Positions 20,872 through 49,952 of a DNA stretch of 64,000 bases are shown here, one piece after another. The notes beneath the pieces are model-generated. The model searched no databases. It had not been told where the DNA came from and saw nothing but the letters and a program-made list of their open reading frames with translations. The translations under genes and the position numbers were made by a program. Within the stretch, counting starts at the first letter, position 1. The number at the start of each line of letters is the position of its first letter. Source of the stretch: Prochlorococcus marinus str. MIT 0918 (GTDB lineage Bacteria; Cyanobacteriota; Cyanobacteriia; PCC-6307; Cyanobiaceae); the NCBI RefSeq assembly GCF_027359415.1, contig NZ_CP114780.1, positions 806,001 through 870,000 on the forward strand. Direction: 5' to 3'.

Positions 20872-21561
20872 CTTTTAAATGTATATGCTGCTACAAAGGT
20901 ACGCTGAGGGAACTAATTAGGCAAGGGGTAGAGTCCAGAAAAACTTTACTCTCAACAAGCCAAAATTCCAAAAATCTTAATCATATCAATGGATTGAGCA
21001 TGATTGAGAGATTCTAAACTTGTTCTGAATTGTTCTGAGTCGTTTAAAAAACTTCAATATTTTCAAACTCTGAAACAAATATAAAATTCATCGAATATAA
21101 AAAATGTCTAATTGAGTGCTAAATCTATAAAACAAGACGCTACTATTCTCTTAATTGAAGCCATTGCTAGCTTAATAAAGTCTAAGCTCATTAAGAATCC
21201 ATTTTGGGCGTTCTTTCTTTGTTTTTTTCCAAATCACAGAAAGCAGAAATGCTACTGCTTCTGGCTTCCTGGGCAATTTGCAACTCAGGTAATTAGTGAC
21301 ATGTGTAGAAGTCATATCGAAATCATCACTACACCATTTATAGCCCTTAAATAAAAAGAAGAAATTAGTATTTATTCCTGAGTGTAACCACTGATTCTTA
21401 AAGTCTCGTATCCAAGAAATTAGTCAAATGCAAGAATTTATATGAGAGGGTTTTAGAATAATGCTCTACAAGGCAAAATTCGAAGGCTAGAAATACAAAT
21501 AACATATTTACCCATCAAATCCTATGCAAAATAAAGTTCCTGAGTAGCTTTAGATCTTGCA

Positions 21562-21684
21562 ATGAGGTCTATTAATACAAATGGGCTTTGCGATAAAAGA
21601 AGCTGTCAATCCGTTAAAAGATCTACCTATTACGCCTTAAACTTTTTTGGATATTTTAAGTCCACCTGCCCTGGCAATCTGTAA
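21562..21684 (+). CDS. Possible 40-residue Cys-containing peptide
   Basis: ATG 21562 to TAA 21682-21684, reading MRSINTNGLCDKRSCQSVKR then STYYALNFFGYFKSTCPG. Three cysteines and an aromatic segment give it a folded look. No ribosome binding site. The rest of 20872-22101 shows only doubtful frames, such as GTG/TTG-started ones at 21112, and nothing else that I can support. Confidence 0.35.
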   Translation: MRSINTNGLCDKRSCQSVKRSTYYALNFFGYFKSTCPGNL

Positions 21685-22101
21685 TTGAAAAGCATTCCAC
21701 TATATAGAGCAAGTCTAAAGACAAGCTTAATCCAGGATTTAGCAACGTTGAGATACTTCATTAAAGGCAACCACCTAATCAATTACTAGCTGCGATTGAT
21801 TTTAAAAAACTTTTTCTTCACATATTTGTGATATAAAAACTACTTTCTTAAAAAGCTACTGCTGCTAACAAGATACAAATCTAATTATGAGGTAAACCAA
21901 CCAACTCCCAAAATCATATTTTACAAAGTTTTTGATGACTATTCTTAAAAAAAGAATGTAGGGCCAGTAGGCATAGTTGACAAAATATCAACATTATATA
22001 GATATTGTATCTTGTATGTCATAAAAAGGTTTCGATATTTTTAAAATTGGACTCATCCCAATGGTAATCAGTGATATCTTTATTTTACCTTTCACTAAAT
22101 A

Positions 22102-22599
22102 ATGAATCTTTATCTTGTACTACTAGGCGGGAAGATTCCTGGAGGACACGTTGAGATGCATGATGTTCGTTGGGTCATAGGTGAGACAATTGAATCAACT
22201 GTTCCGCAACTGAAATCGGAATGGATGGGCAACTCTAAAGGCTTGCATATTGATAGTTATAAATTGATTAGGTTTGTTGATGGCTATCAGGTCACATTAG
22301 TACAAGAAAATATACCTTATGCAAGCCAATCCAATAAACTTTGGTTCGTAAATCTGGGCGGCTATCAAGCAGGTGAAATGCTTGAAAAGCACCACATTGA
22401 ACTTGTTGTAGCTCCATCAGCTCAAAAAGCAAAGCAGAAAGCATTTACTAAATGGACTGAACTAATTAATCAAATTCATCAAGATGATAAAGCAAAAATC
22501 ATTAAATTAAAAGGCTATTCAATTCTGCTAAAGCCAGATCCATATTGCAGAGATGAAGGTATGAAGCCCGATTGGGTTGGATATTGGGTTATTAGTTAA
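22102..22599 (+). CDS. DUF1543 family protein
   Basis: 165 residues starting MNLYLVLLGGKIPGGHVEMHD, the usual DUF1543 opening (LYLVxLGG…IExHDVRW). A second half-domain repeats the layout: KLWFVNLGGYQAGEMLEKHH (about 81-100), ending YIG-like VGYWVIS. The family is known from many proteobacteria and cyanobacteria, with no biochemical function assigned. Length is normal. Alone, convergent with the big operon that ends at 22725. Confidence 0.85.
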   Translation: MNLYLVLLGGKIPGGHVEMHDVRWVIGETIESTVPQLKSEWMGNSKGLHIDSYKLIRFVDGYQVTLVQENIPYASQSNKLWFVNLGGYQAGEMLEKHHIELVVAPSAQKAKQKAFTKWTELINQIHQDDKAKIIKLKGYSILLKPDPYCRDEGMKPDWVGYWVIS

Positions 22600-22724
22600 A
22601 TAGATTCTCTAACCATTTGTTTAGTTGATATAATAGTAGCCAATAAAAAATATATTTTTAATCTATATATCTCATTGTAATAGTAGTTTTATAATTTCTA
22701 AACTAAAAATATGACCACAATAAT

Positions 22725-23648
22725 TCATATAAATGCATACCCCAATCCTGTACGACCATAACCATTACCATTAAAAAATAAATATTTATAATCACCTAAT
22801 TTCAAAGGGAATGCATACTCTTGGGTTTCACTTATCCAAAAATCAGATTTAAAGGTCAAATTATCTAATCTTGTGAGCCTATTTAAAGATTTCCCAACTG
22901 CTCTACCAATTTGATATGCATTTCCTCTACATGAAAACCATAAACAGTAATCATTTTTACTAAATTCTAATACAGGCTTACCATGTATATGTTCTCCATG
23001 TTGATACTTAAGGACTGTAGTCCCATCTCTTTTCCAATTAATAAGATCGTCAGATGTAGCAATTTTTAAATTATAGCTAGGTTGAGAATGAGGGTGGGAG
23101 TCAGTTATGAAGCTTTCTCCTTTCCATGGCAAAAAAGATGTATATATCATTTTCCATTGGTTACCCTCTTGAAAAACGCAACAAGAGCCTGTTCCATAGG
23201 GTTCTTCATTTGTCCTATCAAGGATAGGCACTTTATTGATTCTTAGATATTCTGAATTATGATGATGATCTAATTTTTTGATTGCTAAGCCTAAGAAATT
23301 TTGGAACCTATTCTTCCCACCATTAACCCATCCAACATAATATAAATACTCTTTACCATTATTTTGGACTATCCATGGGTAGGAGACACCACTTTCATCA
23401 AAACAACCAGTCTCTCCTACAGTAAAAATTGGATCTTTATCTAAAGATAAAAGTTGTAAGTGTCCATTAGATTTTTGTTGTATTATAGCTTTTCCTATTT
23501 GTGAAATTCCATCAGCATCTCTACCAGTAATAAAAGCTTCTATTGTATGTTCATTAACAACTCTGAAAAAACTAGGACCAACAGATGATCTGCACCAATG
23601 ATTTCCTGTATTTGGTTTTATAAGTAAATAGGATTCTAAATTAGGCAT
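22725..23648 (-). CDS. Five-bladed beta-propeller glycosidase-like protein
   Basis: 307 residues with repeated beta-propeller blades seen in GH43/GH32/GH130-like proteins: GRDADGISQIGKA (42-54), CFDESGVSYPWIV (82-94) followed by YLYYVGWVNGG, EPYGTGSCCVF with KMIYTSF, and IATSDDLINWKRDG. These folds cleave or phosphorolyse sugars with acidic residues; Asp84 and Glu-Pro after blade 3 are candidates. No signal peptide, so cytoplasmic. Last gene of the seven-gene operon, 32 bp after the amidohydrolase gene. Substrate unknown; it may act as a sugar-handling enzyme in assembling the operon's product. Confidence 0.6.
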   Translation of the reverse strand: MPNLESYLLIKPNTGNHWCRSSVGPSFFRVVNEHTIEAFITGRDADGISQIGKAIIQQKSNGHLQLLSLDKDPIFTVGETGCFDESGVSYPWIVQNNGKEYLYYVGWVNGGKNRFQNFLGLAIKKLDHHHNSEYLRINKVPILDRTNEEPYGTGSCCVFQEGNQWKMIYTSFLPWKGESFITDSHPHSQPSYNLKIATSDDLINWKRDGTTVLKYQHGEHIHGKPVLEFSKNDYCLWFSCRGNAYQIGRAVGKSLNRLTRLDNLTFKSDFWISETQEYAFPLKLGDYKYLFFNGNGYGRTGLGYAFI

Positions 23649-23680
23649 AAAAATATTGAATGCTTGATATCAAGAAAAAA

Positions 23681-24532
23681 TCAAAATCTAATTATATTTT
23701 CCATATTACTTATCATAACATTCGACATTTTTTGAATTACTAAATCATTTTTCATAGTTCTCAAAAGCCTCATTTCAATAATTGATAGTACCTTTCGAAG
23801 GTATAAATAGTCATATTCTGGGTGATCAGATCCAATAACTAACTTTTTATCCAATTGACTAAATAAATAGACAAAGTCATAAAGTAAAGAAGAATCTATA
23901 TATCTGCATAAAGTAAAAGATAGGTCAAGATAAATATTATTGAAGTGCTGTGCATATTGCGAATATCTCAAAATATCAACAGTACCTCCATGAAGAAGAA
24001 TAATTTTATAATCGGGATTTGAAATAATTAATTCATCAATTAATTTAAATACATTCTCTCGACGCATTGTTGGAGAACATTGGAATGGATAAGTACATAT
24101 ATAAAGGATTAATTTTTTCCCTATAATTTTATATATAGAATGTATACATTTAATGATATTTTTATAATCAGCAAATGACGTATAAGATGCATTTATCTTA
24201 ATTATAATTGGGAATTCAATTGGAATAATAGTAATTATATTTTCAATAAATATATCAGGATTATTTATAACGGATTGATCAATTATTAGGCATGGGTATA
24301 ATTTTAACTTATTAGAGTTAATAATACAATTATGTACAAAGTCTTTGATTGGAATGTTTTCATTTAAAGTATAATTACATGCAACAGCAGCCTCTATATT
24401 ATTATCTGCCATAGAAGCTATTAAAGTACTAAATTTTGAATCTGAAAACATCGTCTTCCCGATCCAATTTCCAGAAAATGAAGGATGCGTAAGCGAATCA
24501 AAAATAGGCGCTCCATTAGAAAAATTCTCCAT
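23681..24532 (-). CDS. Amidohydrolase-2-like TIM-barrel protein
   Basis: 283 residues. The layout resembles amidohydrolase family 2: IFDSLTHPSFSGNW at 10-23 in place of the usual DxHxH strand, VIGSDHPEYD at about 232-241 at the barrel end, and ILLHGGTVD around 178-186 with a metal-ligand candidate His181. The first motif keeps only one His, so metal binding may be altered. Such enzymes hydrolyse C-N bonds or decarboxylate rings. Starts one base after the stop of the 692-residue gene, so it is translated from the same message. Confidence 0.55.
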   Translation of the reverse strand: MENFSNGAPIFDSLTHPSFSGNWIGKTMFSDSKFSTLIASMADNNIEAAVACNYTLNENIPIKDFVHNCIINSNKLKLYPCLIIDQSVINNPDIFIENIITIIPIEFPIIIKINASYTSFADYKNIIKCIHSIYKIIGKKLILYICTYPFQCSPTMRRENVFKLIDELIISNPDYKIILLHGGTVDILRYSQYAQHFNNIYLDLSFTLCRYIDSSLLYDFVYLFSQLDKKLVIGSDHPEYDYLYLRKVLSIIEMRLLRTMKNDLVIQKMSNVMISNMENIIRF

Positions 24533-24533
24533 A

Positions 24534-26612
24534 TTATGTAAAATAACCTAATATTTTATTAAATACTGATTGTTTATTCATATAAGAATACCTTGGAATA
24601 TCTTCTAAGGCATTTAAAGATTGATTTAAGATAATCTGTTCTCTTAATTTATTTGAAGGTTGCTCAGTATTATCGCCAGTCATATATATATAGTAAATGT
24701 AATTTTCTAACAACATAAAGCTAGATTTTTTTAACTTTGATCTATTTTTCTTAGAAATCCTACTTTCCTCTAAATAATATTTTCTAAGTTCTTCAGTTTC
24801 ATATTGTAATAAATTTAAAATATTAGCTGCTAAATTCCCCATAAATGGTCCCTCCTCAAAAGCAAGCTGAATAAATGAATCCTTTCCTTCTTGAGATGGA
24901 CTAAAGTTAGTAAAAGAAAGGAAGCATGAAGTTGTATAGCCATATATCTTTAACAAAAATGCAATTTCATAAATGCTTAGAAGACTATGATCCAGTAAAT
25001 AAAGAAGGTAGCCAGCCAATGCTGCAGCTCCTGCAGGTTCTGGTTTTATAAATTTAATACTATTGTTATTATTTAGCTTTTCAAGGTAAATTCCTTCACC
25101 GTAGATAATAGCTTGTGAAAAATAATTAAGGGTATGTGTTGCAGGATGAAAACTTGAACCTCCTTTAAAAGATCCAGAATTTTTTGCAGAGTCATTTAAA
25201 ATATCAAAACAAAGATTGCCATTCGAATAAGATGATGAACCAAGGCCTACAAAAGCTGTACCCCTTCCAGAGGTGTGTCTAAGAACAACTACCCCAAGCA
25301 ATTGAGCTAATGATTGAATATTAGCCAAGTCAAATAAGCCATGAATATGTGAACTAACAGTAATTTTTTTTACTTTATTCCAGTTATCTGAAATAAATTT
25401 AAACCGCTTATTAAATTCTTCTAAGGTTCCTTTTTTAAGGAGACTATTATTTTGTAAAACTTGATCTGCTATGACAGTAGCTGCTAAAGCTGCTCCAATA
25501 GATGCTTGATTCCATGTGGAAGTCTTATATTTACCCTTAAAGAACCTTAAATGTTCTTCTATCATTATAAAATATGGAAGCATTAATCCTCCTATGCCTC
25601 CTTCTACACCTCTAGTTACAATCACCTGGCTTTCTTTAACATAAGCACAAAGTGAATCAAGTAATTTTGTGACATTATCATCAAAGAGCAATTGGTCAAT
25701 ATTACATTTTTGTTTCTCTGCTAATTCTTTTAACCCAACAAATAATAAATTCTGAATTTCCTCTTCAGATTGGGGATTAGTTGGAAAGAAATAACCTCCA
25801 CTAGATAAAGCTTCACTTAAAGCACCAGGGTCTCTTTGTTGTCTATTAATATATGTCTTAAGTGTTGTAGATTTTGGGTGTTCCTCTTGAAGACTGTGCA
25901 ACATATTAGACTTTTCATTATTCATAAAATCAGCCTTTTCATCTGGGCACCAAATCCTTAATGAACCTTCGTCTGGATTAAGCATGACATATTCCTTATC
26001 ATTAATAATTATTGGCTTGCTTTGAAAGGCTCTTATACATTCATGCAAAGATATGCCCATATTCGATGATGTGGAGCATATAATTGGTCTTTTATGTAGC
26101 GTTTTCCATATAGCCAATGGTAAGATTGCTTGGGAATTTGATGGTTTAGCTTTTAATTTATGATAGTATTTTTGAATATCAGGATAACAACTTTCCACTT
26201 CAGTTAATAAATACCTTGAAGATAAGAATATTTCTTTATCTTTATAATATTCTTCTTGAGATTCTTGATATTTTTGCAATGTAGTAATTACTTGTTCTGC
26301 TATTAAACCAAGTGAATTAAACCCTTTTACACAACTCTGAAAATAATCCCATCCTTTTAGAGAAAAGACTTTTGAACCTATTGCTGAAGATAATTTATCT
26401 AGAGGAATGGTTAACCTTTCATAATCATTTTCAGGCGAAAAGTAATTACATTTAATTCCACATAATGTAGCTATATCATAGGTTAATAAACATATATTGG
26501 TTAACTTATCATATCTATTTTGATTATCTTTAGCTATAGCTACTCTATTATTAATAGAATAAGCATAAGGTAATGTATTTTTGTGAGAGTATGTTGATTG
26601 ACTAGATGCCAT
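24534..26612 (-). CDS. Large protein of unrecognised family, operon core
   Basis: 692 residues from ATG 26612 (a TTG at 26639 overlaps RidA and is less likely). I cannot assign it to a family. Distinctive stretches are VTRGVEGGIGGLMLPYF (about 334-350), NQASIGAALAATVIADQVL (about 370-388), VSSHIHGLFDLANIQSL, RHTSGRGTAFVGLGSSSYS and FKGGSSFHPATHTLNYF. The small-residue-rich, His- and Gly-containing motifs in the second half suggest an enzyme active site; the first 300 residues are helical and poorly ordered in motif terms. No signal peptide. It lies between ridA and the amidohydrolase gene with 5 and 1 bp spacing, so it is central to the operon. Confidence 0.7.
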   Translation of the reverse strand: MASSQSTYSHKNTLPYAYSINNRVAIAKDNQNRYDKLTNICLLTYDIATLCGIKCNYFSPENDYERLTIPLDKLSSAIGSKVFSLKGWDYFQSCVKGFNSLGLIAEQVITTLQKYQESQEEYYKDKEIFLSSRYLLTEVESCYPDIQKYYHKLKAKPSNSQAILPLAIWKTLHKRPIICSTSSNMGISLHECIRAFQSKPIIINDKEYVMLNPDEGSLRIWCPDEKADFMNNEKSNMLHSLQEEHPKSTTLKTYINRQQRDPGALSEALSSGGYFFPTNPQSEEEIQNLLFVGLKELAEKQKCNIDQLLFDDNVTKLLDSLCAYVKESQVIVTRGVEGGIGGLMLPYFIMIEEHLRFFKGKYKTSTWNQASIGAALAATVIADQVLQNNSLLKKGTLEEFNKRFKFISDNWNKVKKITVSSHIHGLFDLANIQSLAQLLGVVVLRHTSGRGTAFVGLGSSSYSNGNLCFDILNDSAKNSGSFKGGSSFHPATHTLNYFSQAIIYGEGIYLEKLNNNNSIKFIKPEPAGAAALAGYLLYLLDHSLLSIYEIAFLLKIYGYTTSCFLSFTNFSPSQEGKDSFIQLAFEEGPFMGNLAANILNLLQYETEELRKYYLEESRISKKNRSKLKKSSFMLLENYIYYIYMTGDNTEQPSNKLREQIILNQSLNALEDIPRYSYMNKQSVFNKILGYFT

Positions 26613-26617
26613 GTTTT

Positions 26618-27058
26618 TTATTGGGCAATTACAAAGCAAGCTTCTATCACTACGTTAGAAGGTAAAGAATAAACTCCAATAGTTGTTCTTGCAGGGAAAC
26701 TAGTCAAACCATTCATCCAGGATTTGTACTCATCATTAAAATCAGTAAAATATTTTTTTAAGTCTACTATAAATATTCTAGATTCAATAATATGGTTTCT
26801 GATATTATCTTTATCTATTCCTATATTAGATCCTATTAATTCTAATTGATAAACAATACTTTTAAATTGTTCTTTTACAGAATGGGTATATTCGCTATTT
26901 TTACTGTTGCTGTATACGCCTACATTTAATCCTGTAGTATTGTCTTTAAGAGATACAATACCTGAAGTGACATAAATCCCATTTGTCCCAGAAGCATGGC
27001 TATGACAAAAAGGCAATGGGGATGGCAATTGCTTTATAATTGAATGGTCTATCATCAT
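26618..27058 (-). CDS. RidA/YjgF-family imine deaminase
   Basis: 146 residues: HSHASGTNGIYVTSGIV at about 19-35, a central helix NIGIDKDNIRNHIIESRIF, and the signature PARTTIGVYSLP followed by VVIEACFVI. Canonical RidA hydrolyses reactive enamine/imine intermediates such as 2-aminoacrylate; the substrate-binding Arg (in ART) and the Glu (VIEA) are both present. A dedicated RidA within a biosynthetic operon usually processes or protects an imine made by a PLP enzyme or oxidase. Longer than housekeeping RidA (about 128 aa), with an extended N-terminus. Confidence 0.85.
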   Translation of the reverse strand: MMIDHSIIKQLPSPLPFCHSHASGTNGIYVTSGIVSLKDNTTGLNVGVYSNSKNSEYTHSVKEQFKSIVYQLELIGSNIGIDKDNIRNHIIESRIFIVDLKKYFTDFNDEYKSWMNGLTSFPARTTIGVYSLPSNVVIEACFVIAQ

Positions 27059-27061
27059 GGT

Positions 27062-28267
27062 TTAATTGTATTTAATTGACTCTAATAGATAAGCCTCATC
27101 TTCTAACAACTTCTTTTTTGAATCGCTACCAATTACAAAATATCCTAACCTATCTGAGCTATTTCTTACTAACTGAGAAGAACCCTCGCCGTTTGGTAAC
27201 TCTAAATGGATTAATTCTGAACTATTTGGTTTCCCAATAGAGATCTTACTATATTTAATATTTCTATCAGGTAAAAATCGCATAATAACATACTTATTTT
27301 GTTTATCTAATATATCAAGATTTGGTTTTTTTAAATCATAATTCAATGCCCTATTTAATAGAAATTCTGAAGTTGAATAATTTGTAATATATGGAATAAT
27401 TTTACTAGAGATAGAGCCTCCCCCACCTCTCGGGGAAATCTCAATTAAATACGGTAAGCCAGTGGAACTTTCTATTATCAATTCTGCATGTATTAAGGTA
27501 AAGTTATAATTTAGTGCGTTTGCTGAATTAGAAGCAGAATTAATTAAATCTGACTTTATGTCTATTGAAATATCATCAAGGAAAGTGTTTCTCTCATCTA
27601 TACATGGATTAGAAGAGTAATGAAACTTTCTTGCAATAACTAATGGATATAATTTATTATCTAACACCACTCCGTCGACACTATATTCTACGCCATCAAT
27701 AAAATCCTGAATTAAAATCATTCCACTTCTCGAGTAACTAAAAGCAGAACTAATGGATTTATTTAATGAGGACCTATCGGTAACAAGAGAAACTCCTTTG
27801 GAACCTTGAGCATCAGCTGGCTTAATAATAATATTGATTTTATCGTCCAATTTATTAGAAGCTTCATTAATAAGTCTAATCTCTTCACCAATTGAACCTT
27901 GTATAGTGGCAGGGACACAAACATTATTAGTTTTCAAAATTTTATTCTGAGACATTTTATTAATGCCATTTTTTATGGTATCCAAACTCATGTGCACTAA
28001 TGAGAATTCTCTACAGACTATTGAAACAGTTTCTAAAGCTGCATCCGACTGATCTGAAACAACACCATCAATTTGTAATTCCTCCTGAATAATTTCATCT
28101 ACAATGTCAAGAGAGTGTCTTATATCCTTAACTATATGTTTACTAGCTAAGAAGGCGCAGGGTGAATCTTCATATGGATCTACAAGGATAAGATTATATC
28201 CTGAATCATAGATGTATTGAGCTAATGGGAGCTGATTAGAGCCTCCTGCTATAAGAACTATATTCAT
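27062..28267 (-). CDS. ATP-grasp ligase
   Basis: 401 residues. N-terminal Rossmann-like pre-grasp domain (MNIVLIAGGSNQLPLAQYIY), ATP-grasp lid IIIKPADAQGSKGVSLV (146-162), the substrate-side VEYSVDGVVLD, Glu262 in HAELIIE, and the metal-binding LIEISPRGGGGS (274-285). This type (BL00235/PurK/carbamoyl-phosphate-like) joins a carboxylate, through an acyl phosphate, to an amine or thiol. Overlaps the methyltransferase stop by four bases and ends three bases before ridA. It is the likely bond-forming step of the pathway (amide/peptide). Confidence 0.85.
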   Translation of the reverse strand: MNIVLIAGGSNQLPLAQYIYDSGYNLILVDPYEDSPCAFLASKHIVKDIRHSLDIVDEIIQEELQIDGVVSDQSDAALETVSIVCREFSLVHMSLDTIKNGINKMSQNKILKTNNVCVPATIQGSIGEEIRLINEASNKLDDKINIIIKPADAQGSKGVSLVTDRSSLNKSISSAFSYSRSGMILIQDFIDGVEYSVDGVVLDNKLYPLVIARKFHYSSNPCIDERNTFLDDISIDIKSDLINSASNSANALNYNFTLIHAELIIESSTGLPYLIEISPRGGGGSISSKIIPYITNYSTSEFLLNRALNYDLKKPNLDILDKQNKYVIMRFLPDRNIKYSKISIGKPNSSELIHLELPNGEGSSQLVRNSSDRLGYFVIGSDSKKKLLEDEAYLLESIKYN

Positions 28268-28968
28268 TTTAAATATTGGATCCTTTTATCATTGAAAACA
28301 GGGTAATTTTCATCAAAAGATTGATCTTTAAGTATAGCTAAGCTGAATTCAAATGGGAAATAGCTATGGTCAATAACAAATCTGCGAGAAATATTGTAGG
28401 CAATATCTATAATGCGAGCGGGGTCAGCATTGAAGATTATTTCATCTAAATAATCAACCCTATTTGTAATAAAATTAGCTGCTATTCCAATTGAAGATGT
28501 ATTGAAAGATGCCTTCAAGACAGATTCTATATATTCATAATTACTACCATTTTTAATTTTAAAATTAAATATTCCAGACATTAAGGAGTAATCTTGAGTA
28601 TTAATCTTTTCATTAGTATATTTTTCTAGGAAATCTCCCTCAAATAACTTGAAGTTTTTTCTAGACCCATAAGCTAAATTACCTTGCTCACAAAGTTCTT
28701 TGACTAATTCATAGCCCTGGTATGACTTAATATTATAACCTTGTTCAATAAGGAAATTATAAAGGTCGCCGAATCCAGCTCCAATATCATTAATTGAGAA
28801 TAAATGCCTTTTTGAAATATTTAAAATCTCAATTAAAATTTTAAACCTCTCTAATTGCCTTCCTTTCTCTCCCCAGCCTAGGGACTTCTGATCATGACCA
28901 AAAGAGCTTAGGTTCTTTAGATATCTTGCTTTTACTAGTTTTATATCCTTAAGTGGTAACTCATCCAT
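28264..28968 (-). CDS. SAM-dependent methyltransferase
   Basis: 234 residues. KSLGWGEKGRQLERFKIL at 28-45 precedes the SAM motif NDIGAGFGDLYNFL (60-73), and GYELVKELCEQG fits the acidic loop. The SLGWG…RF lead-in is characteristic of a group of small-molecule methyltransferases. Its start lies 47 bp after the oxygenase-like gene and its stop overlaps the ATP-grasp start (28264-28267). Probably O- or N-methylates the product. Confidence 0.75.
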   Translation of the reverse strand: MDELPLKDIKLVKARYLKNLSSFGHDQKSLGWGEKGRQLERFKILIEILNISKRHLFSINDIGAGFGDLYNFLIEQGYNIKSYQGYELVKELCEQGNLAYGSRKNFKLFEGDFLEKYTNEKINTQDYSLMSGIFNFKIKNGSNYEYIESVLKASFNTSSIGIAANFITNRVDYLDEIIFNADPARIIDIAYNISRRFVIDHSYFPFEFSLAILKDQSFDENYPVFNDKRIQYLK

Positions 28969-29015
28969 ACTTAATCAGTTCTTTATTCTATAACTTAATA
29001 ATAATTATAGACGCT

Positions 29016-29762
29016 TTATGTAATTGATGAAGTTGTAGCAAACCCCATCCACCTACCATGTGTATCTATAAGTTCTTGGTCACAAATCAAATTAGACCTT
29101 ACTAATTCCACTCCATGATTAAGTCTTGGGTTAAAAAAAATCATATCTCCTATATCAGTATAATCTTCTGGATAAATATAGGTTCCATCATTCATTATAT
29201 AGAAAAATCCACCTGAAATAAAATCATGACCTTTTTTTGACATTAATATAGTGGGTACGACATATTGGTTGCTCCCTACTATATCGCTATGATCACTTAA
29301 ATAACCTTTATTAATTGGGTAAAATTGATAACCTACTCTAGAAATGTAATTATGCGGTGGCTTTTTAAGACTATTATATAGATAGTCATTATTTGAGATT
29401 AATGCAGATATCTTATCTTTAGCCTCAAATACCATTCTATAGACATTAAAAGTATTTAAAAGATCCTGATTATGAGGGAAGAAATTAAATTGATAGAAAA
29501 AGCCTTTCACACTAGCCCTATCATCTTCTAAATTAATCCTGAAATGATTAGGGCTATTATTACTTATTGGATAATAATTGGGAAATGTATTAGAAGATAT
29601 ATTATTCAAATAACTCCTAACTCTCTTACAATATTCTTTGGTAAAAGCTGATTTGAGAATAATACATTTACCATCCTGCAGACTATTCGCTACAGTCTCT
29701 AGATTTAAAAATATATCCTCCCAAGCATCGAACTGCAATATATTTTTTGCTAAATATTGCAT
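29016..29762 (-). CDS. 2-oxoglutarate/Fe(II) oxygenase-like protein, first operon gene
   Basis: 248 residues. A jelly-roll with the 2-His-1-carboxylate triad is visible: HSD at 158-160, His216 in NPRLNHGVEL, and a basic residue (Arg237, in GRWMG) in position to bind 2-oxoglutarate. GGFFYIMNDG supplies the conserved strand. Such enzymes hydroxylate or desaturate unactivated carbon. First of the tight seven-gene operon; its promoter must lie in 29763-29948, shared divergently with the membrane protein gene at 29949. The family call rests on triad spacing rather than overall similarity. Confidence 0.65.
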   Translation of the reverse strand: MQYLAKNILQFDAWEDIFLNLETVANSLQDGKCIILKSAFTKEYCKRVRSYLNNISSNTFPNYYPISNNSPNHFRINLEDDRASVKGFFYQFNFFPHNQDLLNTFNVYRMVFEAKDKISALISNNDYLYNSLKKPPHNYISRVGYQFYPINKGYLSDHSDIVGSNQYVVPTILMSKKGHDFISGGFFYIMNDGTYIYPEDYTDIGDMIFFNPRLNHGVELVRSNLICDQELIDTHGRWMGFATTSSIT

Positions 29763-29948
29763 GAAATCATATCTAAATCAGTTCAATGCTAGCACTAAAT
29801 GTTAATTTAATCAAAATCAATATTTTATTAACTCTGAATTAATTAATGAAGGACTTGAAAAATGTTTTTCATAATATTTTAAACAAGTTTTACTTATTCT
29901 CAGGAATTTAGTAAAATAAAAGAACCCAATAGACATTTTACTATTATT

Positions 29949-30305
29949 GTGATACTTATTTTATTAACATCTTTTTTTGTATCTCTGGGAAGTTATTTAA
30001 TTAGAAAAGGAAGTATAGTTGATTTATTACTTTCTTTAATTAACAAAGCAAGCTTACATCCAGGAGAGTTCTGGTATACCATTTTAGGTATAATTTTAAA
30101 TATAATAGGAATTATACTTTGGCAAATAGGTTCAAAATCAAATATACCTTTTTCAGTTGCCTGGCCTATATACCTTTCAACCCTACTTCTTTTTGGAAGT
30201 ATCATTTCTTTTTATCTTGACAAGATAAAACTAGAAGGGAACTTTTATATTGGCTTCTCATTTATCTTAATAGGTGTTTTAATCTTAACTCGCATAAAAA
30301 CTTAA
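29949..30305 (+). CDS. Small four-helix membrane transporter, SMR/ArnE-F type
   Basis: 118 residues, four transmembrane helices: ILLTSFFVSLGSYLIRKG, WYTILGIILNIIGIILWQ, VAWPIYLSTLLLFGSIISF and GFSFILIGVLILTRI. The internal GxxLNxxxxxxWxxG pattern and size match the small multidrug resistance fold, which includes ArnE/ArnF, flippases for lipid-linked aminoarabinose. Starts at GTG 29949. Next to a formyltransferase and an ArnC-type transferase, so a lipid-linked-sugar flippase is the favoured role (inference). Confidence 0.65.
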   Translation: MILILLTSFFVSLGSYLIRKGSIVDLLLSLINKASLHPGEFWYTILGIILNIIGIILWQIGSKSNIPFSVAWPIYLSTLLLFGSIISFYLDKIKLEGNFYIGFSFILIGVLILTRIKT

Positions 30306-30373
30306 TAATGCTTGCAATTATTTTCATGAAATGGTTATATTTATGGTGGATTAAATAGTTAATAGTGAGTTAA

Positions 30374-31117
30374 TTGAATAGTATTTTCCTTTTTACTGGT
30401 TATGATCGCTCAGACTTGATAGATTTTTTTCTATCTAAGAGCATAAAGATTTACGGTTTAGTGGTCCCAAGTAATATTAAGTACACAAGAAATATGACAA
30501 AGATATTTAACCTTGCAATCAAACATTTGATTCCAATATTTACAGCTAAGTCTTTGCAAAAATCTCAATTATTTCATAGTTACTCCAAAGGTTCATGCTT
30601 ATATTCATCTGGATATCCTCTTCTAATAAATGAAAGCCTTTATTCAAGATTTAAATATGCATTAAATTGCCACCCTTCACTTTTACCTAGGAATCGAGGA
30701 AGGTATCTTGAATATATTTTAATTAATAATGATTATAAAAGCGGAACCACTATTCATCATATTAAATCTGGATGCGATAACGGACCTATAATAATGCAAC
30801 AAGAGTATGATGTGAGTTTTACAGATAATGTTTCAGATCTACTGGAAAAATCTTATAGATTGGAAATAAATATGTTGAAAGATATTATCCAAGACCCATT
30901 AAAACTAGAGATCGAAATTCATCAAGATGAATCAAAAGCCACAACATATACAGCACAAAGAACACCTCAAGACTCTGAATTATCTAATGAGACATCTCTT
31001 TTAGACGCATATCTAGCCTCAAGAGCTTTTGATGAAAACTTATACCCAGGATATTTTAAATATAAAAACTATCGAATTTACTTTAGAATGAATGTTGTAG
31101 AAGATTCAAATAATTAG
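30374..31117 (+). CDS. 10-formyltetrahydrofolate-dependent formyltransferase
   Basis: 247 residues from TTG 30374. The catalytic triad of the formyltransferase fold is complete: Asn98 and His100 in LNCHPSLLPRNRG (97-109), and Asp135 in KSGCDNGPII (131-140). These enzymes place a formyl group on an amine, as in GAR transformylase, Met-tRNA formyltransferase and ArnA. The active-site loop SLLPRNRGRYLEYIL resembles the sugar-nucleotide N-formyltransferases. There is no C-terminal OB fold, which argues against fmt. Follows the SMR-like gene by 68 bp on the same strand. Confidence 0.85.
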   Translation: MNSIFLFTGYDRSDLIDFFLSKSIKIYGLVVPSNIKYTRNMTKIFNLAIKHLIPIFTAKSLQKSQLFHSYSKGSCLYSSGYPLLINESLYSRFKYALNCHPSLLPRNRGRYLEYILINNDYKSGTTIHHIKSGCDNGPIIMQQEYDVSFTDNVSDLLEKSYRLEINMLKDIIQDPLKLEIEIHQDESKATTYTAQRTPQDSELSNETSLLDAYLASRAFDENLYPGYFKYKNYRIYFRMNVVEDSNN

Positions 31118-31217
31118 TATTAGACTGCATATAATCTTTATTTGTATAAAAACTTTACTGAAGTAACTTAATTAAATATTACAATCTAAATGCGATATTT
31201 CTTTAATTTGATAGTAA

Positions 31218-32144
31218 CTACTTACTTTTCCCATATATTTCTTTCACAATAGAATAAGGTCTTCGTTTGGTTTCAATAAATATTCTGCTTACATATATGC
31301 CTATTAATCCTAATGATGATATTAGTAATCCAGTAGAAAGCCAAATAGAAATTATAATAGAAGCCCATCCTGGCACAGGGTTCAATAATACTAATATATT
31401 AATAGCTAATGCTATTGATAAGAAAAGTGAAAGTATAAATATAATAATACCTAAATAGAACATTCCTACTAAGGGGGCAGAGGTTGAACTCGTGATGCTA
31501 TCCACAAAGGCATGAATTTTTTTACTAAGGGTATACGAGGTAGGTGATGTACTTAGTTTCTCAACTTCTATTGCTTTTTGATCATATCCTGTCAATAAAG
31601 TTAGGTAGTTCAATACAGGATGAGATTCCGTAAATTTGCATAAAGATTCTTTATACCTACTAGTCATAAGTCTTGCTGTAACAATATTACGAGGAAACTC
31701 CATTCCAATAAGCATATTAATTAAGCTGTAAAAGAGACTGCCAGTAATTTTTTCAAAAGCATTTCCTTTTCGACTGGATTGAACCCCATAAACACAATCA
31801 ACATTTTCATTATTCAAAACTTCACGGAATTCTGTGAGCCATTCTGGCTGTTCTTCTAGATCAATATCAATTAACCATATAAGATCACCTTGAGCATATT
31901 TCAACCCTGTCATCATTGCTTTATGGTGACCAAAATTTCTTGATAAATTAATTACATTAACTCTAAAATCTTTTTCAGATAAAGATGTTGCTACATTTAT
32001 AGATTTATCAGGAGAGCCATCATTAACTAAAATAAACTCAATATCATGAAAGACATCTTCAGAAACTAATAAAGACCTTTGATAAAAGTCTTCTATATAT
32101 TTTTGGGAATTATATAGAGTACTTACAATTGAGAGGGTAGTCAT
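31218..32144 (-). CDS. ArnC/GtrB/DPM1-type polyprenyl-phosphate glycosyltransferase
   Basis: 308 residues. GT2 fold: VSTLYNSQKYI, VNDGSPDKSINVA (40-52), FGHHKAMMTGLKYAQGD (71-87) and the metal-binding LIDIDLEEQPEWL (91-103). Two C-terminal transmembrane helices (about 230-255 and 265-290) are the hallmark of enzymes that load sugar onto undecaprenyl or dolichyl phosphate. ArnC transfers formylated aminoarabinose. Convergent with the formyltransferase gene; the two genes lie 100 bp apart. Confidence 0.85.
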   Translation of the reverse strand: MTTLSIVSTLYNSQKYIEDFYQRSLLVSEDVFHDIEFILVNDGSPDKSINVATSLSEKDFRVNVINLSRNFGHHKAMMTGLKYAQGDLIWLIDIDLEEQPEWLTEFREVLNNENVDCVYGVQSSRKGNAFEKITGSLFYSLINMLIGMEFPRNIVTARLMTSRYKESLCKFTESHPVLNYLTLLTGYDQKAIEVEKLSTSPTSYTLSKKIHAFVDSITSSTSAPLVGMFYLGIIIFILSLFLSIALAINILVLLNPVPGWASIIISIWLSTGLLISSLGLIGIYVSRIFIETKRRPYSIVKEIYGKSK

Positions 32145-32362
32145 TTTATTATGATGTTCAAGGCAAAAGGTTTGAGTAACATCATCAAGATTACATAAAT
32201 AATTCTATTATGCCTATTCAAACATGTCTTTGAGAGCACAAAATTAATTTCTTTGATAGTAATATTATTATTAATTAAAGGTATTAAATTTCCTTTAGAA
32301 ATATCAATATCTCATTTACTTAGCTTAAGTCTGATTTGCAAACAAACTAAATAACAAATTTA

Positions 32363-33211
32363 CTAATAGGTCTCAAAAGAAGGACTAAAAGGTCCACCTG
32401 CAAAACCTTGCATGCCTCCGGAGCCATCAGGAATAATTGTCATCCCTCTATTAGTAATACTAAATGTTACTTCCAAGCCTTGAGTGGTATCCTTAATAGT
32501 TACTGGTGTTGTAGGAGCAAAACTGCCAAATAATCTTGTTGAACTACCACAGGAACTATCTCCTACATAAGTACCACTACTAACTTGAGCAACTACTGCT
32601 TTCATCGTTCCAGTGATACCTGTTGTAAATACCTCTGCACCTGCTAGCTCTGGGTTGCTTCCACAAGTAGCGCCATTGTTAAAATCCATAAGATCTTCAT
32701 CCCATTCAGCATTGAGACTAGAATTTTGAGTTTTTGCTCCACTAGCCATTGAATAATAATTAGTACCTGCTAATTGATAAGAACCTTTTAATCCAAAAGT
32801 ATTTTTTATTTTGATGTAAGCATGTGGATAAGTGCCTGATGCTGGCCTAAAGTTTGTCCCACTCAGCGTGGCGGTAGCTCCTCCTCCAAGATTTACTTGA
32901 CTCCCTGTTGAAGACTGAAAGGTAGCCGTACATGTTGACTCATCAATTGTATTATCAGTAACTACATCATCACTAGAGTTAATAGAAGTACCAGCAAGAG
33001 GGTCTGATGTACATAAACCCATTTCATAAACAGTAATTCTATATGTTTCTGGAGTTATATAACAAGAATTATTAATGCTGGATGGATTGCTACCAAATAA
33101 GCTTTCGCATGAGTTTGCCTTAGCTTCTGTTCCAGAAAAAACTAAAGATGTTGCTAGGCAAAACCCTAGGCCAGATGATGCTTTTAAAAGTTTCTTTTGA
33201 AAAGAGTTCAT
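32363..33211 (-). CDS. Secreted Cys-containing protein, probable partner of the barrel protein
   Basis: 282 residues with a clear signal peptide (MNSFQKKLLKASSGLGFCLA then SLVFSGTEAKA, cleavage near residue 32). The mature part is Ser/Thr/Gly-rich, has six to eight cysteines (e.g. SCESLFG, MGLCTSDP, ESTCTATF, GDSSCGSS) and ends GGPFSPSFETY. No family recognised. It is encoded 50 bp downstream of the inverse-autotransporter barrel and is the only candidate passenger. Probably periplasmic or exposed at the surface. Confidence 0.6.
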   Translation of the reverse strand: MNSFQKKLLKASSGLGFCLATSLVFSGTEAKANSCESLFGSNPSSINNSCYITPETYRITVYEMGLCTSDPLAGTSINSSDDVVTDNTIDESTCTATFQSSTGSQVNLGGGATATLSGTNFRPASGTYPHAYIKIKNTFGLKGSYQLAGTNYYSMASGAKTQNSSLNAEWDEDLMDFNNGATCGSNPELAGAEVFTTGITGTMKAVVAQVSSGTYVGDSSCGSSTRLFGSFAPTTPVTIKDTTQGLEVTFSITNRGMTIIPDGSGGMQGFAGGPFSPSFETY

Positions 33212-33261
33212 TGTTTTTGTAAGTTGTTTTTAAATTGAATAATGAGACAGAGTTTTAATGT

Positions 33262-34494
33262 CTATGAGCCCTTAGCTCTATTTGCAAATCCACCAGCTGA
33301 TCGCTCAAGTAAAACATCATATTTACGTCTAACAGGTTGAGTCATTTGGGTTAACAAATTTTGCTTGATATTCTGCTTTTCGAATTTAACTGGACGCGCA
33401 GTCCATTTAAATCTCAAACCAACATATCTTTCATCAGTATTTGGCAACTTTGAATTAACAACTGTTTTCCCAGCGAAAAGTTCATTAGAAGCCCAGAATT
33501 CTAAGTTCACATGTGGTGTTGCCTGCCAATTAAACGAGCCTTCTACCCCACTATTGTCTTGTGTGTGTGTGTAATCCCAACTGAAACCTTTTACAAAGAC
33601 AGCCATATCTGGACGATTTGGGAATCTATAACCGGCTTCCACATCCCACCCAGGGACAACCTTCTCTGTAAATTCACTACCATCTACAGTTACAGTCTTT
33701 TTGTCGGTGATCGACATATACCAGTTATTTCTGAGTTCCCAACCTTGATTGAAATATTCTCCACCTAAACCAAGTCGGCTATGTGCATCACTATAATTTG
33801 TCATGCGATAATCCCAAAATGCATTACCACCAAACATTGACAAATCATTAGGACGATGACGAATACCTAACCCCAAATTGGTTGTTGAACTATCACTTGA
33901 AGAAGCCCGAGATAACTTAGCCTGTGAAAACAATAATGTTTTAAGATCACCTTCAGAATCAACTGCCATCTCTTTAAGCTTCATCAAGCTGTCTACAGAA
34001 AAATTTGTTAGCGAATCACTTGTTCCGCTAACAGTAACAGTTGTTTGTGCAAAGAAAGGAATCTTTTGAATCTGATCATTGCTAAAGTTGTTAACTAATT
34101 TATATCCAGCATCTGAAATAAGTTGTCTACCATCATCAATTACGATGTTGGTATAAGCACTGCCTTCAGCATTACTATTTAAAAGAGGCACAAAGCGACC
34201 AGCATATTCTGCTGTTTTAATAACAAGGCGATCTAACCTATCTTGTGGTTGATAGGAATAATCATCTGGCCCCAAACACGCAACTGATCTTGGATTAACA
34301 AAAAGATTACAATCTGTGGGATGCATTACTCCTTTTGGTCGTTGAATATAGATCTCATTCTCTATACTTTTGTCTTCAAGAATAATAGAAGAAAGTTGTT
34401 GAGTACCTAATTGTTCTGCCTGGGCCAATGGGATGCAGAAAGCTGCTAAAAATACAGACGCAAAGGTTTTCTTTTTTAGATTTGAAAAGTTCAA
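33262..34494 (-). CDS. Inverse autotransporter (intimin/invasin-type) beta-barrel protein without a passenger
   Basis: 410 residues. Signal peptide MNFSNLKKKTFASVFLAAFC … AQA. Beta-domain landmarks of inverse autotransporters follow in order: NLGLGIRHRPNDLSMFGGNA (about 205-224) and FWDYRMTNYSDAHSRLGLGG (about 225-244), then amphipathic strands with WELRNNWYMS, GWDVEAGYRFP and LEFWASNELF, and a C-terminal RYVGLRFKWT. In intimin and invasin the outer-membrane barrel is N-terminal and exports Ig-like domains that follow it. Here the protein ends about 45 residues after the last strand (PVRRKYDVLLERSAGGF), so no passenger is attached. The next gene encodes a secreted protein. Confidence 0.75.
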   Translation of the reverse strand: MNFSNLKKKTFASVFLAAFCIPLAQAEQLGTQQLSSIILEDKSIENEIYIQRPKGVMHPTDCNLFVNPRSVACLGPDDYSYQPQDRLDRLVIKTAEYAGRFVPLLNSNAEGSAYTNIVIDDGRQLISDAGYKLVNNFSNDQIQKIPFFAQTTVTVSGTSDSLTNFSVDSLMKLKEMAVDSEGDLKTLLFSQAKLSRASSSDSSTTNLGLGIRHRPNDLSMFGGNAFWDYRMTNYSDAHSRLGLGGEYFNQGWELRNNWYMSITDKKTVTVDGSEFTEKVVPGWDVEAGYRFPNRPDMAVFVKGFSWDYTHTQDNSGVEGSFNWQATPHVNLEFWASNELFAGKTVVNSKLPNTDERYVGLRFKWTARPVKFEKQNIKQNLLTQMTQPVRRKYDVLLERSAGGFANRAKGS

Positions 34495-34774
34495 TTATTC
34501 ATTTATTAAATCAGAGCATATATTAATCACTTCAAAAAAATAATCACTACCTAAATAGACAGATTTCAACCTGGAAAGCTTTAAAAGCCAAGATTTATTG
34601 ATCGCAATTACGTAAAAGGCCTAGTCCCTCTAGACTTACTAGAGAAGGTTAATGCCCTAAACTCAAGACCTACACTGAAGCTAATACTCAAGATGCTTCA
34701 AATATTTTCAAAGAACAAAATTATAATAAATTAATTAACAAATTAGTACATGCTATCGATACCATAGAAAGAAA

Positions 34775-35296
34775 TTATTTCGTAACATCAATAGAACCTG
34801 CTGGGGCAAGAAAATTGACTATTGCAGGTATCAAAAAAAGAACTGTGATCAATCTCACTGCATGCAAAGCAGCAACAGCGGCCCCAACCCCAAACTCTGC
34901 TCCAACTAGGCTCATACCTATAGTTCCACCAGGGGCTGCTCCTAACAAGGCCACAGTCTGATCTACCCCAAGTAACTTGCTAATCAATAATCCAACTAGA
35001 ATCCCAGCTATCAAAAGGGTAAACGTAATAATCAATGCAGGTTTCCAAAGTAATTGTAATTCTCCTAATGTCTCTCTATTAATACCAGTACCAATAACTG
35101 TTCCTATCGCTATCCCCAGTATTGTCTTTGTTCCGAGAGGCCAAGCAGCTACTTCTAGCTGACCACTTATACTTAGCAATCCAGCACCTAATATTGATCC
35201 TAGAAGTGGAGCCGCAGGAATTCCAGTCAAGAGCATGATGCACCCTAAGGCTGCTCCTCCAAGCATGTATAAGAACAAAGTTACCAAAGAAGTCAT
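34775..35296 (-). CDS. AbrB-type membrane protein, single domain
   Basis: 173 residues, six hydrophobic segments. Gly-rich elements characteristic of the membrane AbrB domain family: MLGGAALGCIMLLTGIPAAP and LLGAAPGGTIGMSLVGAEFG. E. coli AbrB (unrelated to the DNA-binding AbrB) has two copies and about 350 residues; this is one copy and would have to dimerise. The substrate is unknown. 34495-34774 upstream of the barrel gene holds a short CTCTAG/CTAGAG hairpin and no gene. Confidence 0.75.
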   Translation of the reverse strand: MTSLVTLFLYMLGGAALGCIMLLTGIPAAPLLGSILGAGLLSISGQLEVAAWPLGTKTILGIAIGTVIGTGINRETLGELQLLWKPALIITFTLLIAGILVGLLISKLLGVDQTVALLGAAPGGTIGMSLVGAEFGVGAAVAALHAVRLITVLFLIPAIVNFLAPAGSIDVTK

Positions 35297-39481: not shown

Positions 39482-39788
39482 TCTTTTGAGAGCATTACAT
39501 TAATGATGACTTTACAACTTATCTTTGATAGAAATTAGTTTTTACTGCAGAGAATATAAAAATCAAAACGTAGTCAATACAAGCAAAAGGTTTTACCAAT
39601 TAAGCATAATATTTTCTCCTGTTAATTCGTTAAAAACTCCTCTTTTAATCATCAAAAACTTCTAAAATTACTCTACAAACAGAAGTTGGACATTTTTCAG
39701 AACTTAATGAAAAGACTGAAATGTTTGTTAGATCTCCATGCTCCGTTTTAAAGTAGAAATCACTTTCTACAGCCACAATTTCAACTCC

Positions 39789-40115
39789 ATGGCTCCGTAT
39801 CGGCCACCTTCCAATAATCCAATTGATAGTCAATTGTCTTTAACTCCTTCCAGGAAGGAAGTGCCCACAGCCTTGTCAATGATGGTTGATTCAATGGCGA
39901 GCATGGCTCAAAGAGCCAAAACTGACCTAGAACGAGTTGATCAAAGGGCTAGAGCTGACCTAGAACGAGTTGATCAAAGGGCTAGAGCTGACCTAGAACG
40001 AGTTGATCAAAGGGCTAGAGCTGATCTAGAACGAGTTGATCAAAGGGCTAGAGCTGATCTAGAGCGTCTTGATCAAAGAGCTAGAGCTGATCATCAACGT
40101 CTAAAAAAGGATTAA
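39789..40115 (+). CDS. Hendecad-repeat coiled-coil protein
   Basis: From ATG 39789 (MAPYRPPSNNP) the 108-residue protein has a Ser/Pro-rich head, then ALSMMVDSMASMAQRAKTDL and five tandem 11-residue units of type ERVDQRARADL, ending DHQRLKKD. An 11-residue period gives a right-handed coiled coil, as in some membrane-surface helices (LEA-like, apolipoprotein-like). The 33-bp DNA units are nearly identical. A minus-strand frame at 39645-39833 is less convincing. Confidence 0.65.
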   Translation: MAPYRPPSNNPIDSQLSLTPSRKEVPTALSMMVDSMASMAQRAKTDLERVDQRARADLERVDQRARADLERVDQRARADLERVDQRARADLERLDQRARADHQRLKKD

Positions 40116-41718: not shown

Positions 41719-41838
41719 CTAGTAAATACCAGGAATAATCCAGCCAAAAAATCCATAATTAATGATTAATGCAAATAAACCAATCATCGCTAAGCGACCG
41801 TTAGTTTTCTCAGCGACTTGCCAATAGTTGTTGTTCAT
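41719..41838 (-). CDS. hli: High-light-inducible protein, 39 aa (operon 1, last gene)
   Basis: One-helix member of the Lhc superfamily: VAEKTNGRLAMIGLFAL carries the chlorophyll-binding ExxNGRxAM motif, and the end GWIIPGIY is the hli tail. Hlips bind chlorophyll/carotenoid and protect the photosystems under light stress. Start overlaps the upstream stop as TAATG, which couples translation. Protein identical to the one encoded at 60697-60816. Confidence 0.9.
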   Translation of the reverse strand: MNNNYWQVAEKTNGRLAMIGLFALIINYGFFGWIIPGIY

Positions 41839-41940
41839 TAATAGATGCCTGGAATTATTTGGCTAGTAGAAATATAGGAGCCTAATAAGGCTATGAAGCC
41901 AATCATTGCCCAGCGGCCATTAGCTTTTTCAGCTTCTTCT
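41732..41940 (-). repeat. Left copy of an identical 209-bp inverted repeat
   Basis: Compared by eye base by base, the reverse complement of 41732-41940 equals 60595-60803. It covers the C-terminal half of one hli gene, the TAATG overlap and most of the next. The outer sequences diverge at once. Copies are inverted, 18.65 kb apart. Confidence 0.9.
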
Positions 41941-42041
41941 ATATATCCTGAATAATTTTCGATTAGTTCAGGTTTAGCCTCAACAGGGAATACATTTTGA
42001 CGTTCACCTGCTTCTGTAGTGACGTAAGGAGATGAGGGCAT
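41838..42041 (-). CDS. hli: High-light-inducible protein, 67 aa (operon 1)
   Basis: A variable N-terminal 35 residues (MPSSPYVTTEAGERQNVF) followed by EEAEKANGRWAMIGFIALLG and SQIIPGIY. The Lhc motif ExxNGRWAM binds chlorophyll. The C-terminal half is identical in protein and DNA to that of 60473-60697, whereas the N-terminus differs. Sixteen bases after the next upstream hli. Confidence 0.9.
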   Translation of the reverse strand: MPSSPYVTTEAGERQNVFPVEAKPELIENYSGYIEEAEKANGRWAMIGFIALLGSYISTSQIIPGIY

Positions 42042-49439: not shown

Positions 49440-49952
49440 ATGAGCTTACAAATGGAACCAATATATATTGACAAATCTGCAAATGTATCAGATGACGCTG
49501 TTATTGGAGAAGGAACAAAAGTTTGGATAAATGTTCAAGTTCGTGAAAATTCAATAATTGGCTCCTATTGCAATATAGGGAAAGATTCCTATATTGATAC
49601 CCTAGTTAAGATCGGTGATCGTTGTAAAATACAAAATAGTGTCAATCTCTATAGTGGAGTAGATATTGAAGACGATGTTTTCATAGGGCCTGGTGCTACA
49701 TTTTGTAATGATAAAGTTCCACGTGCTTTCGTAAAAGATTGGGAAGTTGCTCCAACAAAAATATGCAAAGGAGTGAGCATAGGAGCAAATGCAACGATAT
49801 TATGTGGTATAAAAATCGGAGAATATTCAATGGTAGGTGCTGGAAGCACAGTAACTAAGGATGTACCTCCATATACTCTTGTCTTAGGCTCCCCTGCTAA
49901 ACCCATAGCATCAATAGATAAATATGGAAACAGAATTAGAAATTTTGATTAA
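49440..49952 (+). CDS. WbpD-like sugar N-acetyltransferase (left-handed beta-helix)
   Basis: 170 residues built of hexapeptide repeats (IGEGTKVWINVQVREN, IGSYCNIGKDSYI, IGDRCKIQNSVNLYSGV). The signature CNDKVPRAFVKDW is that of UDP-2-acetamido-3-amino-uronate acetyltransferases such as WbpD/WlbB. These acetylate the 3-amino group of UDP-GlcNAc3N-uronate, using acetyl-CoA. A 3-acetamido sugar is the substrate for the neighbouring WbpG-HisFH set, so they form one pathway. Convergent with it, 100 bp apart. Confidence 0.85.
   Translation: MSLQMEPIYIDKSANVSDDAVIGEGTKVWINVQVRENSIIGSYCNIGKDSYIDTLVKIGDRCKIQNSVNLYSGVDIEDDVFIGPGATFCNDKVPRAFVKDWEVAPTKICKGVSIGANATILCGIKIGEYSMVGAGSTVTKDVPPYTLVLGSPAKPIASIDKYGNRIRNFD

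Follow-up and report, generated by a model that had tools for sequence, protein, structure and literature searches.

A conserved, mobile gene island in Prochlorococcus marinus MIT 0918 and its possible role in surface-sugar decoration

In a 64,000-nucleotide stretch of the Prochlorococcus marinus str. MIT 0918 genome (positions 806,001-870,000 of NZ_CP114780.1; hereafter the window, whose own positions are used throughout), we identified a minus-strand run of seven genes at 22725-29762 that adjoins genes for an SMR-like transporter, a formyltransferase (FT) and an ArnC/GtrB-like glycosyltransferase (GT2). We read this island as a horizontally acquired module for decorating a surface sugar, in which a hydroxylated and methylated acyl group would be amide-linked to an amino-sugar loaded on undecaprenyl phosphate, and we give this reading a probability of about 0.58. 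Our confidence is strong that the cluster is real, mobile and conserved, fair for its role in glycan synthesis, and weak for the exact product, whose chemistry we infer. The glycan role is suggested by a conserved protein set, comprising a dioxygenase-like protein (Ox), a beta-propeller related to glycoside hydrolases (GHp), an amidohydrolase-like protein (AmH) and an ATP-grasp ligase (ATPg in the window), usually with a 701-residue protein (X701), a methyltransferase (MT) and GT2, that lies beside nucleotide-sugar or glycan genes in distant bacteria.

In picocyanobacteria, surface sugars are believed to take part in deciding which phages and grazers attack, and little is understood of the chemistry behind their variable islands. 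A constant core with changing caps, common to distant bacteria, a plasmid and a viral contig, provides a concrete and testable gene set. In what follows, labels beginning with L denote loci and those beginning with G genomes with which the window was compared.

Insertion site and conserved neighbourhood

The island is an insertion, and the same site is empty in relatives. Flanking segments at ~20.65-20.93 kb and 34.80-35.73 kb lie only 253-804 bp apart in six other genomes of the genus, as read directly from the sequence for G011, G006 and G002 and as taken from coordinates for G009, G012 and G004, so that ~13.9 kb are unique to this genome at this site. The guanine-plus-cytosine content of the seven-gene run (26-33%) is lower than that of the host genes checked outside glycan regions (34-39%). 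The tight spacing described in the initial annotation was borne out, with intergenic gaps of 32, 1, -22, 3, -4 and 47 bp from low to high coordinate; the overlap of 22 bp between X701 and RidA rests on a TTG start, and an ATG nine codons further downstream would abolish it. We found no tRNA genes in the 64-kb window and no match to the PADLOC defence models.

Within the genus, X701 was found in one of 14 genomes, and within the Cyanobiaceae in one of 400, the carrier in each case being the window genome. A sample of the phylum contained one strong homologue, in another class. Scanning genome contigs with an alignment of two X701 sequences gave five loci (an earlier scan with the single X701 sequence gave none), located in one Caenarcanales genome, two Melainabacteria, one metagenome-assembled genome (MAG) labelled Nitrospira and one unclassified MAG. 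These five distant homologues share ~40-46% identity with X701, and in the Caenarcanales class the gene is present in only 3 of 289 genomes. No match to X701 was obtained in phage records, plasmids or viral contigs, and no additional copy in the GTDB phylum of the 'Nitrospira' MAG (L020, genome G810), whose label may be wrong because that phylum counts just 46 genomes in the collection. Such a rare and patchy distribution is as expected under horizontal transfer.

Comparison of the open reading frames (ORFs) at these loci with the window proteins revealed GHp, AmH, X701, ATP-grasp, MT, Ox and GT2 in L017, L019 and L020, the same proteins except MT in L018, and X701, MT and a distant ATP-grasp protein in L021. 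Gene order differs between loci, yet the genes stay within ~8-10 kb, and a GT2 gene adjoins the cluster in L017-L020 (four of the five X701 genomes). On these sequence comparisons, the joint occurrence of six or seven protein families, X701 included, in four other genomes is far beyond chance. The neighbourhood that the initial annotation had proposed to trace is not found around an X701 gene in any of the 399 other Cyanobiaceae, but the gene set is kept together, in reshuffled order, in distant genomes, and the proposal of a biosynthetic island combining an amide ligase, an oxygenase and a methyltransferase proved sound. Acyl-type transferases of other kinds accompany the relatives. L016 has a carbamoyltransferase, L020 a hexapeptide acyltransferase, and L018 and L019 each an AAC(3)-family protein, assigned by model in L018 and from its sequence in L019; we read these varied enzymes, FT included, as probable interchangeable caps.

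A four-gene core of Ox, GHp, AmH and ATP-grasp is also present without X701, on a Pseudoroseomonas plasmid (L079) and on a viral contig (L078). At the plasmid locus, WecE and an HMGL-like aldolase are encoded together with the four core proteins. On the viral contig the four core genes, in the order Ox, GHp, ATP-grasp and AmH, stand head to tail with genes for a DegT-family protein and an epimerase. This contig, IMGVR_UViG_3300029319_009046, is labelled viral and also carries UDP-glucose-dehydrogenase-like and RfaE-like genes. Plasmids of Peteryoungia, Bernardetia and Devosia further carry GHp, without the other core genes, in glycan loci. An MT homologue accompanies it in the Peteryoungia and Bernardetia loci, and the Peteryoungia locus also has an EamA/SMR gene and a GT2 of strong similarity. 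Loci of polysaccharide type surround GHp in L080, L081 and L083, and in L080 an EamA gene adjoins GHp and a GT2 gene likewise lies by the cluster. The Peteryoungia, Bernardetia and Devosia loci place GHp, MT, GT2 and the small transporter in surface-glycan synthesis.

X701 and its partner enzymes

Nothing in Pfam, NCBIfam, PHROGs, PADLOC or the PDB sequences matches the sequence of X701, and a PDB sequence search with an X701 profile returned nothing credible. Two AlphaFold2 models, of the window protein and of its L021 homologue, are of low confidence, with predicted local distance difference test (pLDDT) scores of 56.8 and 61.7. When these low-confidence models were compared with PDB structures, all 50 of the chains listed for each were pyridoxal phosphate (PLP) enzymes of fold-type II. 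The best match of the window model (pLDDT 57) was threonine deaminase (Z 12.1, root-mean-square deviation (rmsd) 4.0, 232 residues aligned), and that of the L021 model (pLDDT 62) was diaminopropionate ammonia-lyase (Z 11.2, rmsd 4.2, 241 residues aligned). Foldseek searches with the models gave E-values above 0.04, none significant.

Across six X701 sequences, the conserved motifs follow the order of fold-type II enzymes: a lysine (K105) that starts a helix, an asparagine loop (S191-S192-N193) that follows a strand, a glycine-rich turn (345-352) that precedes a helix, EPAGA (534-538, in the setting PEPAGA-x-x-x-AG) and TGDN (654-657, of SGxN type). These motifs were picked by eye and are hence post hoc. 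The pattern EPA[GS]A...AG was confined to X701 proteins, IlvA and ThrC among 194,000 residues of ORFs. We consider it quite probable, from the models and motifs, that X701 is a very divergent enzyme resembling fold-type II PLP enzymes, with K105 as candidate PLP-lysine; we do not file it in that family. What the initial annotation called a large protein of unknown family indeed matches no catalogued one, and the predicted fold now suggests what kind of enzyme it may be. For sequence homology to IlvA, CysK and ThrC, neither hhalign nor hidden Markov model (HMM) tests against their alignments reached significance. X701 was unmatched by PF00291 (PALP) in hmmscan, scored no higher than shuffles with custom PALP profiles, and reached a probability of 3% in hhalign against PALP-type alignments. 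Because these tests were not significant, we do not claim homology to PLP families.

The neighbouring RidA protein passes PF01042 (40.1 bits, cut-off 27.3) and contains PAR and IEA segments, which we take to carry the active-site arginine and glutamate of RidA. RidA is reported to clear the 2-aminoacrylate produced by serine/threonine dehydratase (PMC12188003). Its position beside X701 is chemically apt if X701 is a PLP enzyme that would release an enamine. ATPg passes both PF02655 (44.6 vs 23.2 bits) and PF13535 (40.5 vs 27 bits), and has homologues in L017-L021, L078 and L079.

As single sequences, MT, Ox, AmH and GHp fall below every Pfam cut-off. MT gives a weak RsmA match with a conserved DxGxGFGD motif, and homologues occur in L017, L019, L020, L021, L080 and L081. 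In Ox, a facial triad and distal arginine (H158-x-D160...H216...R237) are invariant in seven sequences from cyanobacteria, MAGs, the plasmid and the viral contig; a PDB sequence search with the Ox profile found no relative. An alignment profile of AmH matches 3cjp (E 3e-5), the plasmid homologue passes PF04909, and D12, H16, H181 and D236 are invariant across seven sequences. Its metal site is altered and its activity uncertain, because a D-x-x-x-H motif (DSLTH) stands where H-x-H is usual. The GHp profile finds GH130 phosphorylases (1,2-beta-oligomannan phosphorylase, E 1.2e-12), a relation at profile level only, with the protein well below the phosphorylase equivalog (NF052550, 19 bits vs a cut-off of 450). 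Homologues of GHp are present in L017-L020 (38-43% identity) and L078-L083.

On the other strand, FT passes PF00551 (53.8 vs 26.1 bits), while the SMR-like protein has weak matches only, to ArnE and TMEM234/EamA. GT2, on the minus strand, passes PF00535, scores 137 bits against PgfS (below cut-off) and matches the GtrB-like phrog_841 (E 4e-54), resembling in sequence PgfS, ArnC and phage GtrB, glycosyltransferases of the polyprenyl-phosphate type. All ten ORFs of the initial annotation are present where it had placed them.

Table 1. Coordinates of the island genes and of the inserted interval in the window
Feature	Position	Strand	Basis
GHp, GH130/GH43-like five-bladed beta-propeller, 307 aa, core gene	22725..23648	-	profile match, homologues
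AmH, amidohydrolase_2-like, 283 aa, core gene	23681..24532	-	profile match, conserved residues
X701, 701 aa, no catalogued family, predicted PLP fold-type II-like	24534..26639	-	models, motifs
RidA/L-PSP family enamine/imine deaminase, 146 aa	26618..27058	-	PF01042
ATPg, ATP-grasp carboxylate-amine ligase, 401 aa, core gene	27062..28267	-	PF02655, PF13535
MT, S-adenosylmethionine (SAM) methyltransferase-like, 234 aa, DxGxGFGD motif	28264..28968	-	weak RsmA match, conserved motif
Ox, 2-oxoglutarate/Fe(II) dioxygenase-like, 248 aa, core gene	29016..29762	-	invariant residues
SMR/EamA-like small membrane protein, 118 aa, candidate lipid-sugar flippase subunit	29949..30305	+	weak matches
FT, ArnA-N/QdtF-like formyltransferase, 247 aa	30374..31117	+	PF00551
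GT2, ArnC/GtrB/PgfS-like polyprenyl-phosphate glycosyltransferase, 308 aa	31218..32144	-	PF00535, PgfS, phrog_841
Interval missing at this site from same-genus genomes (insertion, ~13.9 kb)	20902..34801		flank spacing

Two genes at 32363-34494 separate the island from its conserved right flank, one of which encodes a 410-residue protein with relatives elsewhere in same-genus genomes, at times in more than one copy. A gene for a 165-residue protein (22102-22599) appears to have been relocated to the left edge of the island; in relatives it lies beyond the 34.8-35.7 kb segment. Elsewhere in the window, a 439-residue protein (6209-7528) consists mostly of KKAAAQKKAEAE-type repeats and coincides with a strong local AT skew, and a 125-residue protein (39738-40115) contains RVDQRARADLE repeats. 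Two high-light-inducible-like proteins (41838-42041 and 60473-60697) are identical to each other over more than 30 residues at the C-terminal end.

Proposed chemistry and competing explanations

We propose that X701 would use PLP to form an unusual amino acid or reactive enamine, with RidA removing enamine that leaks, and that Ox may hydroxylate and MT methylate the product. The ATP-grasp ligase would then form an amide between the carboxyl of this product and an amine, for which the likeliest candidates are the 4-amino group of a 4-amino-4,6-dideoxyhexose and a second amino acid. A variable cap might be added, which would be formyl in the window, whereas relatives would use carbamoyl, an acetyl of AAC(3) type or a hexapeptide-type acetyl. 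GT2 could transfer the sugar onto undecaprenyl phosphate, and the SMR-like protein may help to flip the loaded sugar for transfer to a cell-surface glycan, while GHp and AmH may trim or proof-read intermediates. The formylated, lipid-carrier-bound compound of the initial annotation retains its lipid-carrier glycosyltransferase context, but would belong to a surface-glycan module rather than to a free-standing small-molecule pathway, with product and carrier both putative.

The likely amine acceptor is suggested by the supply of amino-sugars. Tested against the equivalog NF008687 (PRK11706; cut-off 375 bits), a WecE-type dTDP-4-amino-4,6-dideoxygalactose transaminase scores above cut-off in four carriers, at 560 bits in the window genome, 573 in L020, 454 in L016 (N-terminal ORF) and 467 in L079. 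The gene adjoins X701 or ATP-grasp in L020 and L016/L017, for which reason 4-amino-4,6-dideoxyhexose is our best guess from sequence for the decorated sugar; in L079 it lies near GHp. L020 also has RmlB above cut-off and an RmlA-like gene, and L018 a WbuX-like gene. The WecE gene of L016 (12776-13964) is split into two overlapping ORFs, by a frameshift or an assembly error. The window contains a second glycan-type cluster (49440-57758), in which a WbuX-like N-acetyl sugar amidotransferase scores 218 bits against a cut-off of 203 and in which a flippase-like protein, HisH/HisF-like genes and a hexapeptide acetyltransferase were recognised by sequence alone.

Several observations weigh against the surface-sugar module. 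The WecE gene of the window genome stands alone at 91.2-92.3 kb, ~740 kb from the island, and for this genome the sugar assignment is still a guess. RidA, the SMR-like protein and FT, all counted as cluster members by the initial annotation, have no blastp counterpart in the X701-bearing relatives and fall outside the shared core, their place being held there by carbamoyl-, AAC(3)-like or hexapeptide acyltransferases. The core is also not strictly obligatory, because L021 retains just X701, MT and a distant ATP-grasp protein. Finally, the X701 models are of low confidence (pLDDT 57 and 62), their Foldseek matches fall short of significance, and no homology to PLP families emerged from HMM searches.

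The same enzymes could instead make a free, secreted dipeptide-like small molecule such as an antimetabolite, as in the dapdiamide or D-cycloserine pathways, with the glycosyltransferase, transporter and FT as unrelated neighbours. A PLP-like X701 would fit such a pathway, and so would an ATP-grasp protein with L-amino acid ligase, BacD and, at a score below cut-off, DdaF among its relatives, as would the placement of the seven-gene operon and the SMR and FT genes on opposite strands. We nevertheless regard it as unlikely, since the relatives lie among glycan genes, an ArnC/GtrB-like GT2 adjoins the cluster in four of the five X701 genomes, DegT genes, of WecE type or other, accompany the core in L016/L017, L020, L078 and L079, and the run contains no obvious peptide exporter or self-resistance gene.

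Alternatively, the target could be a surface glycan bound to protein and not a polysaccharide sugar linked to undecaprenyl, as with sfmABCDE or the viosamine island acting on flagellin. The WecE-like sugar supply would fit this, and sfmABCDE has a similar enzyme mix with a methyltransferase and an ATP-grasp protein (PMC3765264). This seems improbable, given a GT2 of polyprenyl-phosphate type and loci in which we saw no flagellin gene. Prochlorococcus, moreover, is non-flagellated. More improbable still is a catabolic cluster in which GHp, AmH and RidA degrade an acquired sugar-amide and X701 acts as a degradative ammonia-lyase; RidA and proteins of GH130-like or amidohydrolase-like type often serve in catabolism, but the ATP-grasp ligase, methyltransferase, GT2 and nucleotide-sugar transaminase indicate synthesis, the run is without an uptake system, and the metal motif of AmH is altered.

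Within the surface-sugar module, X701 is of interest as a protein that is large and strongly conserved, falls in no catalogued family and comes with a specific prediction, PLP at K105. A bolder proposal, which we advance only tentatively, is that X701 may found a new PLP enzyme family and stand at the centre of a pathway not yet described, which plasmids and perhaps phages could carry between hosts. Such a pathway would join a custom amino acid by an amide bond to a 4-amino-sugar borne on undecaprenyl phosphate, and would represent a new class of surface-glycan decoration. If true, this might alter phage or grazer recognition in Prochlorococcus.

Relation to known systems

We found no described cluster of this make-up in the open-access literature, in agreement with the initial annotation, and the known systems each resemble the island in part. 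Like the Arn pathway (ArnA/ArnC/ArnE), the island groups a formyltransferase, a polyprenyl-phosphate glycosyltransferase and an SMR-like subunit, but it is without ArnB, ArnD and ArnT, and the trio scores far below the Arn equivalog cut-offs (FT as ArnA, 68 vs 777 bits; GT2 as ArnC, 106 vs 529; the SMR-like protein as ArnE, 17 vs 92). The gene types behind the earlier label of an Arn-like trio are therefore present, and the likeness is generic only, because no Arn cut-off is reached.

Among enzymes, X701 comes closest, in its low-confidence models and in the order of its motifs, to the fold-type II PLP enzymes of PF00291, such as threonine deaminase, serine racemase and diaminopropionate ammonia-lyase, whereas the protein is about twice as long, has large insertions and is unmatched at sequence level. 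Similarly, the nearest solved relatives of the cluster ATP-grasp profile include L-amino acid ligase and BacD, with dapdiamide synthase also comparable (DdaF being an NCBIfam match below cut-off), whereas the cluster proteins, that of the window included, are only 20-32% identical even among themselves.

The viosamine genomic island of Pseudomonas syringae likewise adds acyl and methyl groups to a dTDP-4-amino-4,6-dideoxy sugar destined for a surface glycan, but its acyl group comes from acyl carrier protein (ACP)-dependent enzymes, its target is flagellin, and no ATP-grasp, dioxygenase or GH130-like enzyme is listed for it (PMC3927599). The flagellin modification operon sfmABCDE of Shewanella oneidensis has NeuB-, thiamine pyrophosphate (TPP)- and 3-oxoacyl-ACP-reductase-like enzymes, while dioxygenase, GH130-like, amidohydrolase-like and X701 genes are undescribed there. 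It shares with the island a SAM methyltransferase and an ATP-grasp protein in an operon that modifies a surface sugar, and the mass shift seen when its ATP-grasp gene is lost is smaller than that caused by losing any of the other genes (PMC3765264).

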